Source: a virus | Virus record (IMG/VR): IMGVR_UViG_3300043419_001132 | Span: 1 to 25,778 of that record | DNA length: 25,778 bases | Reading direction: 5' to 3' (one strand) | Shown here: positions 13,335 to 14,259 of the stretch, piece after piece | Numbering within the stretch: position 1 is the first letter of the stretch | Layout: each line of letters begins with the position of its first letter | Position numbers and translations under genes: made by a program | Notes under the pieces: model-generated | Told to the model about the DNA's origin: nothing | Seen by the model: the letters and a program-made list of their open reading frames with translations, nothing else | Databases searched by the model: none

Positions 13335-13343
13335 ATTATACCA
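13335..13343 (-). promoter_or_regulatory. extended -10 promoter for head-related genes
   Basis: TGG-TATAAT on the minus strand, overlapping the HNH stop codon. The predicted transcript has a leader of about 28 nt with AGGTGG before ATG 13300, so unlike many promoters here it is not leaderless. Confidence 0.5.
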
Positions 13344-13602
13344 TTCTTCTGTTGTGTGTTCTAATTCTGTGGCAATTGGCACAGACAACCTCACATTTTT
13401 CAATCTCTTTTTTTATAGCCTTCCAAGAGAATCCATCGTGAATCATCCTAGAGACATTGTATTTTTTATCCCTTATGTGATCAAAATCAAGGATAATATG
13501 ACCATTTGCTCCACAATCTACACATCCAGACGCTTCCTTTATGGCTGCAAGCCTGTCCTTATACTGCTGCTTATTGTAATGGTCTAACTCTTTGTCAGTC
13601 AT
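13336..13602 (-). CDS. HNH endonuclease
   Basis: An 88-residue protein. CVDCG (C27, C30) and CANCH (C74, C77, H78) form the zinc ribbon, and DFDHIRD (D41, H42) supplies the catalytic His of the HNH beta-beta-alpha-metal site. I start at ATG 13602, 7 nt after TATAAT, not at the frame's earlier start at 13644, which would run into the inverted repeat of the putative RNA. Free-standing HNH proteins of this size act as homing or packaging-associated nucleases. The structured non-coding region directly upstream is notable. Confidence 0.85.
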   Translation of the reverse strand: MTDKELDHYNKQQYKDRLAAIKEASGCVDCGANGHIILDFDHIRDKKYNVSRMIHDGFSWKAIKKEIEKCEVVCANCHRIRTHNRRMV

Positions 13603-13609
13603 TGATATT

Positions 13610-13615
13610 ATTATA
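13610..13615 (-). promoter_or_regulatory. -10 box of the HNH gene, near-leaderless
   Basis: TATAAT on the minus strand with 7 nt to ATG 13602. TTGTGT at a 19-nt spacing is the best -35 candidate, and it falls in the 3' arm of the inverted repeat. Confidence 0.5.
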
Positions 13616-13629
13616 CCGCCAAATGTTAG

Positions 13630-13713
13630 GTCCCACACAAGCAATTCACCTGACTTGCGCCACGGTCTCTATCCAATGGGTAACTAATCCATCACTAAGG
13701 TCCTGTGTGGGAC
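13630..13713 (-). ncRNA. putative structured small RNA upstream of HNH gene
   Basis: The 5' arm GTCCCACACA (minus strand, 13713-13704) is perfectly complementary to the 3' arm TGTGTGGGAC (13639-13630), closing an 84-nt element. ACCT/AGGT and ATGG/CCAT pairs inside could form secondary helices. An extended -10 (TGT-TACAAT) lies exactly 6 nt upstream of the first G of the stem, so transcription should start at the helix. It lacks a T-loop, so it is not a tRNA. No terminator follows, so it may be a small RNA or a structured leader of the HNH mRNA. Not matched to a known family by eye. Confidence 0.5.
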
Positions 13714-13719
13714 ACTTAT

Positions 13720-13728
13720 ATTGTAACA
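13720..13728 (-). promoter_or_regulatory. extended -10 promoter of the putative RNA
   Basis: TGT-TACAAT on the minus strand; 6 nt separate it from the 5' end of the perfect 10-bp stem at 13713. Confidence 0.5.
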
Positions 13729-13848
13729 TGAAAAGTGAGCACTTTATAGACTTACTCAGGTCCCCCAAGTTGCGACCTTGGGCTTATCCGTACTCAGCAA
13801 TAGGGTCGCTTAAAAAGCAACTGCATGTATCATGACGGAATGTTATCC
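13729..13848 (-). other. non-coding stretch with several potential hairpins
   Basis: No plausible gene lies here. The 6-bp pair CCCAAG/CTTGGG, the pair GCGACC/GGTCGC, and a short AAAGT/ACTTT hairpin overlap and could form alternative structures. A TATAAT (minus strand, 13854-13849) sits right after the Hsp20 stop and could drive a transcript. GGACCT occurs three times on the minus strand (ending near 13758, 13698 and 13628), linking this stretch to the RNA element. It may be one larger structured RNA or the Hsp20 3' region. Confidence 0.35.
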
Positions 13849-13854
13849 ATTATA

Positions 13855-14259
13855 CTACTGAATTTCAATAGTCTTTGGAAGTTTGTCTTCTGGGATCTGC
13901 TTTTCAAGTTTGATATCTAGGATACCGTCCTTAAATTCAGCCCCAATAACCTCAACAAACTCAGGAAGGGTGAAGATATCTGTAAACTTACGGGCTGCTA
14001 TACCCTTGTGTAGATACTCTGCTCCCTCTGGCAACTCAGGATCCTGCTTCTCGCCCTTGATTGTAAGTTTGCGATTGTCTAGCGATACTGAGACATCATC
14101 CTTAGAGAACCCAGCCAAAGCAAATGAAAGAATATATTCTTTATCATTTAGTTTGATTTGGTTATAAGGTGGATAGTTTGTTGTTGTTGTCACCTTCTGA
14201 AAATTTGAGAAGGTGTTAAAAAAGGGATCATTAAAAAGATCCAGTGCTGTTTTTACCAT
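13855..14259 (-). CDS. Hsp20 / alpha-crystallin small heat-shock protein
   Basis: A 134-residue protein. After a 30-residue N-terminal arm (DLFNDPFFNTFSNF), the alpha-crystallin domain runs to the end, with YILSFALAGF, VSLDNRKLTIKGE, FTLPEFV and the signature AEFKDGILDIKL. These ATP-independent chaperones hold unfolding proteins; in phages they may assist capsid or tail protein folding. AAAGGGG before the ATG is a good ribosome site. It has a consensus promoter and a 5' hairpin in its leader. Confidence 0.93.
   Translation of the reverse strand: MVKTALDLFNDPFFNTFSNFQKVTTTTNYPPYNQIKLNDKEYILSFALAGFSKDDVSVSLDNRKLTIKGEKQDPELPEGAEYLHKGIAARKFTDIFTLPEFVEVIGAEFKDGILDIKLEKQIPEDKLPKTIEIQ

Follow-up and report, generated by a model that had tools for sequence, protein, structure and literature searches.

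In the IscB/HEARO systems, a structured omega RNA of approximately 200 nt is encoded beside an HNH protein. A related arrangement is present in type III toxin-antitoxin systems such as ToxI and CptI, where a small structured RNA is located beside a small nuclease gene. Structured RNAs are also found near ibpA, which codes for an hsp20-type chaperone. Within cyanophages, the manA and wcaG motif RNAs have been described in potential 5' UTRs, and the manA motif is present before ibpA chaperone genes as well (PMC2864571). Furthermore, segB genes are reported to co-localize with tRNA genes in phages (PMC13096335; PMC2988022).

Here, an 84-nt RNA located beside a gene coding for an 88-amino acid HNH protein was analyzed in a viral window, meaning the whole stretch of 25,778 nucleotides of the IMG/VR record IMGVR_UViG_3300043419_001132. 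The locus shares with IscB/HEARO a structured RNA adjoining an HNH-protein gene. In contrast to the omega RNA of about 200 nt, however, the RNA comprises 84 nt, the protein consists of the 88 amino acids only, a guide segment is absent and Rfam contains no match. With ToxI and CptI it has in common that a small structured RNA adjoins a small nuclease gene, but tandem repeats are missing, the HNH protein is not ToxN-like and the RNA also occurs without it. The manA and wcaG RNAs, too, are structured, come from environmental phages and are found close to host-metabolism genes; they lie in potential 5' UTRs, whereas the 84-nt RNA is placed behind hsp20, has its own start site and again is without a match in Rfam. 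The likeness to SegB of T4 and T6 is that, in a phage, a structured-RNA gene has as its neighbor a free-standing gene for a nuclease from a mobile family, although SegB is a GIY-YIG nuclease, the neighbor here is not a tRNA, and both homing and cleavage are putative for the HNH protein. As kinds, both structured RNAs of phages and homing genes located next to RNA genes are already known, and what is new is an unclassified and strongly supported RNA family in abundant uncultured freshwater phages.

Position and Fold of the Element

The structured RNA, called type D in the following, occupies positions 13630–13713 on the minus strand, as supported by the R2 covariance model, covariation and relatives. 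An earlier note, made on this DNA alone, had described an 84-nt element closed by a perfect 10-bp stem, an extended −10 set for a start on the first stem base and an HNH gene just downstream, and all three claims hold. The arms GTCCCACACA/TGTGTGGGAC lie at 13630–13639 and 13704–13713, and this stem P1, which covaries in the relatives, measures 12 bp once G-U pairs are counted, with its 5' strand at 13702–13713 and its 3' strand at 13630–13641 in the alignment termed A2. The extended −10 (TGT-TACAAT, 13720–13728, minus strand) ends 6 nt before 13713, the first base of the RNA. The HNH gene (13602–13336) starts 27 nt behind the element. Inside P1, the hairpin P2 (13675–13693) has 5 bp and the 9-nt loop AUUAGUUAC in A2, while the hairpin P3 (13648–13666) is variable; its loop is of a GCAA type in the window and of a CAUCGU type in other copies of the alignments A1 and A2. 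The first bases directly 3' of P1 are T-rich in the distinct relatives. Along the minus strand, hsp20 is followed by a candidate RNA of type A, the 84-nt RNA, HNH, an ORF of 190 amino acids and an ORF starting with MPYKVG.

Taken singly, the stem is unremarkable, since the window contains four perfect inverted repeats of at least 10 bp spanning at most 90 nt, where 2.7 are expected. The z-score of the fold is −3.2 for the minus strand and −3.3 for the plus strand and, with values that close, folding cannot pick the strand. The RNA was assigned to the minus strand, read from 13713 to 13630, because of the promoter and the placement of the HNH gene; the earlier note had named no strand. With the R2 covariance model, the window element reaches 71 bits, the window sequence being itself among the members of the model.

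Relatives and Covariation

Copies of the RNA were located at no fewer than 402 places (about 400) of viral contigs, many of which are overlapping stretches of one contig, and these represent 106 distinct sequences. A scan using the RNA motif only yielded at least 120 stretches, approximately, and more divergent copies came from a second motif scan as well as from a further scan based on a less closely related HNH. Every relative stems from a single environmental phage group, in which the RNA is widely spread as a single-copy gene: out of 23 large viral records, 17 contain one RNA and the rest none. All locus frequencies given below refer to the matches listed, which are the best matches.

The members of alignment A1 were picked by the motif only, and seven P1 pairs display changes on both sides. 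In A2, which comprises 50 distinct sequences, 75 cells are changed on both sides in comparison to 15 in the shuffled alignments and at most 8 in the slid controls. The covariation score of A2 was reached by none of the 500 shuffles, and it collapses for slid versions. The P1 cells of A2 are paired to 99.5%, a figure that is biased upward since the ends of P1, but not P2 and P3, were picked by complementarity. Within P2, one pair shows an exchange of A-U for G-C and another one alternates between G-C and G-U. Compensatory changes thereby preserve a common fold at 10 of the 12 P1 pairs and at one P2 pair. Such a covariation search had been called for in the earlier note, and its result rules out the lack of compensatory changes in homologues, one half of what the note had named as speaking against the element.

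Alternation of G-C and G-U is present within P2 of 18 sequences and within P3 of 19, and likewise in P1 of A1. Neither P2 nor P3 entered into the selection of the sequences, so their frequent G-U pairs indicate that the minus strand is the RNA. Invariant among the unpaired bases are UAGUUAC in the loop of P2 and CUU in the junction of P1 and P2, and the junction strand AGGACCUU is conserved. Of 91 distinct upstream regions, 82 have a TANNNT 2–9 nt 5' of the stem (mean of 21 and maximum of 33 after shuffling), and this −10 is kept even beside different upstream genes. It is this comparison with the relatives, namely the compensatory changes of P1 together with the conserved −10, and not the stem of a single sequence, which confirms the 84-nt element on the sequence level as a genuine structured small RNA gene of an unclassified family with a predicted transcript.

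Searches Against Known Families

That no known element is evident, as the earlier note had stated, agrees with the searches. At the gathering score of Rfam 15, the 84-nt RNA matches no family, either in the window or in divergent relatives, and permissive searches gave chance-level matches only. Overall, the Rfam matches in these sequences are tRNAs, one tmRNA and chance matches, and neither a tRNA nor a tmRNA fold was found at the element by ARAGORN or Rfam. A blastn search with the RNA against cultured phages gave no match. No copy was found in 84,980 genomes of bacteria and archaea, and the absence from bacteria is based on this one exact-pattern scan plus covariance searches at selected loci. 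Literature searches returned no paper describing an RNA of this kind.

The mobile intron, of which the earlier note had been reminded, is not supported, since intact genes are present on both sides, the RNA has a start site of its own, copies without HNH exist and no intron family is matched. Group I and group II introns were rejected separately, as Rfam gave no intron match above the gathering score and no host gene is interrupted. The covariance model of HEARO is contained in Rfam, and a HEARO or IscB omega RNA was dismissed due to the lack of a match in the Rfam searches, the 88-amino acid size of the HNH protein and the absence of an IscB-type nuclease downstream. For Septu PtuB, the profile gave only an E-value of 0.009, and no PtuA-like gene was seen by eye in the ORF list of the window. 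An antisense role of the invariant loop was also discarded, because most 12-mers complementary to it in phage genomes belong to the RNA gene itself and no second site is shared.

Proposed Role of the RNA

The explanation favored here, with moderate confidence, is a free-standing small RNA gene which acts in trans and is carried in interchangeable cassettes, while the neighboring HNH gene of homing type is unneeded for the persistence of the RNA. The gene would consist of a promoter, an RNA of about 84 nt and a T-rich tail and would be transcribed independently. Its product is predicted to fold into a closed three-way junction of P1 with 12 bp, P2 with the invariant UAGUUAC loop and the variable P3, including the conserved strand AGGACCUU. 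It would be one member of a set of structured-RNA cassettes that replace one another at a cargo locus headed by hsp20, carried by an uncultured, probably actinobacterial, phage group. From the conserved unpaired bases, we infer that it may be a stable, trans-acting RNA which most likely binds a host or phage protein via the invariant loop and the junction. The clean anatomy of the gene, with its start, fold and strand, makes the RNA testable. WhiB is encoded in the window, which suggests an actinobacterial host; a megablast search of the window against cultured phages gave no match and thus no near cultured relative.

The HNH Gene and Its Linkage to the RNA

The HNH gene (13336–13602, minus strand) codes for 88 amino acids and matches the HNH endonucleases of PHROG 2255/3106/4234 with E-values down to 8e-22, whereas the match to Pfam HNH (E 0.0016) remains below the cut-off. 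The CxxC and CANCH motifs are present, as expected of the HNH motif and zinc cysteines of a homing endonuclease. A TATAAT −10 (13609–13614, minus strand) is located 6 nt 5' of the ATG, giving a leaderless start, and this arrangement recurs in the relatives.

Among the matches listed, the adjacency of RNA and HNH amounts to about 95%. Scans starting from the RNA gave 104 and 60 true copies that could be used, of which 101 and 54, respectively, have HNH directly 3', and scans starting from HNH found the RNA directly 5' at 80 of 80 and 70 of 78 loci; at six further loci, the RNA is located about 0.9 kb 5' with an extra gene in between. For the two HNH loci L409 and L411, no RNA was found in the recovered sequence around the gene. 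This linkage in both directions would fit a single functional unit in which RNA and HNH travel together, the RNA serving as cofactor, guide scaffold or inhibitor of the nuclease. Such a unit would also explain that the pair stays unbroken where a glutathione peroxidase gene intervenes, and that, of four genomes of 115–118 kb without the RNA, two are devoid of any HNH relative and two have remote ones only. Nevertheless, we regard it as rather unlikely. Five divergent copies of the RNA (L087, L308, L328, L330, L347) are without an adjacent HNH; L328 and L347, for instance, have the order hsp20-RNA-MPY, compared to hsp20-RNA-HNH-MPY in L010. Bacterial and cultured-phage relatives of the HNH protein lack such an RNA, the RNA has no variable guide-like segment and HNH has a separate promoter of its own. 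Moreover, the distance correlation between RNA and HNH (0.22) equals that between RNA and hsp20 (0.22), so that no special co-evolution is seen by this measure. Given the five copies without it, HNH accompanies the RNA closely but not obligatorily, and the RNA can persist in its absence.

The glutathione peroxidase gene between RNA and HNH was identified by Pfam (GSHPx) at L310 and by eye at L132, L392, L395, L396, L399, and L402, and is a cargo insertion into the interval.

The hsp20 Locus and Other RNA Types

The hsp20 gene of the window (13855–14259, minus strand, Pfam HSP20 E 2e-17) has counterparts upstream of the RNA in 320 of 388 copies among the matches listed. In about 45 copies, the upstream gene appears by eye to be phosphate-binding-protein-like, its C-terminal pieces being without a Pfam match, and a few copies have some other gene at this position. 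Further cargo genes of the locus are, e.g., glutathione peroxidase and ferritin-like genes.

Between hsp20 and the 84-nt RNA, the window contains a candidate structured RNA, type A (13737–13841, minus strand), with a possible 3' H-type pseudoknot and a TATAAT −10 (13849–13854, minus strand) adjoining the hsp20 stop codon. After hsp20, the unrelated types A, B, C, and D (the 84-nt RNA) alternate or stand in tandem, and the four genomes of 115–118 kb without the 84-nt RNA carry other types there. Types A, B, and C have in common the possible 3' H-type pseudoknot and some paired changes, where S1 is AUAGAC/GUCUAU, AGAC/GUCU or AUAGUC/GACUGU and S2 is GAGCAG/CUGCUC; none of the three matches Rfam. 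At L157, the 5' part of type A is joined to the 3' part of type B. At a single cargo locus, these freshwater phages maintain a number of structured-RNA cassettes that can replace one another.

In the candidates of types A, B, and C (L243, L237, L254, L138, L259), the RNA is preceded by a TAGTAYAAT located at the stop codon of hsp20. In many contigs, among them L303, L311, L114, L184, and L183, the module that forms the 5' hairpin of type C (GUCGGGGGAGACAGCGAC...CUGGYAU) is joined immediately to the 5' side of the 84-nt RNA, after the promoter. Genes here and in the relatives look leaderless, having a TATAAT 6–8 nt 5' of the ATG that often overlaps the preceding stop codon, and, judged by these TATAAT boxes, almost all genes around the locus seem to be equipped with a promoter of their own.

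The hsp20 stop codon often overlaps or abuts the promoter of the RNA, and its distance to the RNA is at most 50 nt at 212 of the 320 hsp20 loci among the matches listed. With a start right after the upstream stop in most loci and a T-rich sequence 3' of P1, the element could also be the 3' end of the upstream gene, be it hsp20, phosphate-binding-protein-like or peroxidase, and act as a stabilizer in the 3' UTR or as a terminator. This is unlikely in our view, since the −10 of the RNA is conserved, the bases of loop and junction are invariant whereas a terminator requires the stem alone, and hsp20 is in many loci separated from the 84-nt RNA by another RNA that ends in a 3' hairpin of its own.

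A leader acting in cis, as riboswitch or attenuator of HNH or another following gene, would be in line with an aptamer-like three-way junction containing invariant unpaired bases and with a gene of the same orientation that is always downstream. It is very improbable, because at nearly every locus read a separate −10 with leaderless spacing stands between the RNA and the start codon and the downstream genes (HNH, MPY ORF, peroxidase) are unrelated. A DNA element, i.e., a recognition site of HNH or a recombination site, is suggested by the palindromic arms and the DNA nuclease family of the neighbor, but can be dismissed almost entirely, as the G-U pairs of P1, P2, and P3 are strand-asymmetric and the arms vary in sequence while the promoter is conserved.

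HNH Relatives Beside tRNA Genes

The bacterial relatives of the HNH protein are mostly 35–60% identical (approximate values). A tRNA gene lies within 300 nt in 41 of 57 of these loci, and in 25 of the 41 bacterial loci outside Microbacterium; the tRNA density is 1.44 per kb near and 0.17 per kb far from the gene. Three relatives in cultured actinophages (Streptomyces and Mycobacterium phages) are located inside or beside tRNA clusters. A covariance search beside the bacterial and cultured-phage relatives detected no copy of the 84-nt RNA. Genes of the HNH family from several bacterial phyla (L436–L493) and from cultured actinophages (L433–L435) adjoin tRNAs of many isotypes.

As the relatives adjoin tRNA genes, similar to SegB in T4-like phages, the HNH protein is most likely a free-standing, putatively homing nuclease whose gene came to lie immediately 3' of the RNA gene. 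The 88 amino acids leave little room for a DNA-binding domain, which counts against homing, and the adjacency of about 95% to the RNA might be tighter than expected of a casual homing neighbor. Since this small HNH family adjoins structured-RNA genes in phages and bacteria, the theme of SegB and tRNA would be extended to another nuclease family and to RNAs other than tRNA.

A bolder proposal is that the 84-nt RNA and the 88-amino acid HNH protein form a minimal RNA-partnered, or RNA-controlled homing, nuclease, the wider family using a neighboring structured RNA, elsewhere tRNAs, as cofactor or substrate. We consider it distinctly unlikely; if true, the hsp20 locus would be an exchangeable RNA island of phages, possibly serving counter-defense.

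At one locus (L086, 8385–8810, minus strand), the 84-nt RNA itself stands after four consecutive tRNA genes and before a longer HNH ORF, with an open frame of 178 amino acids that is approximately 50% identical in the HNH part.
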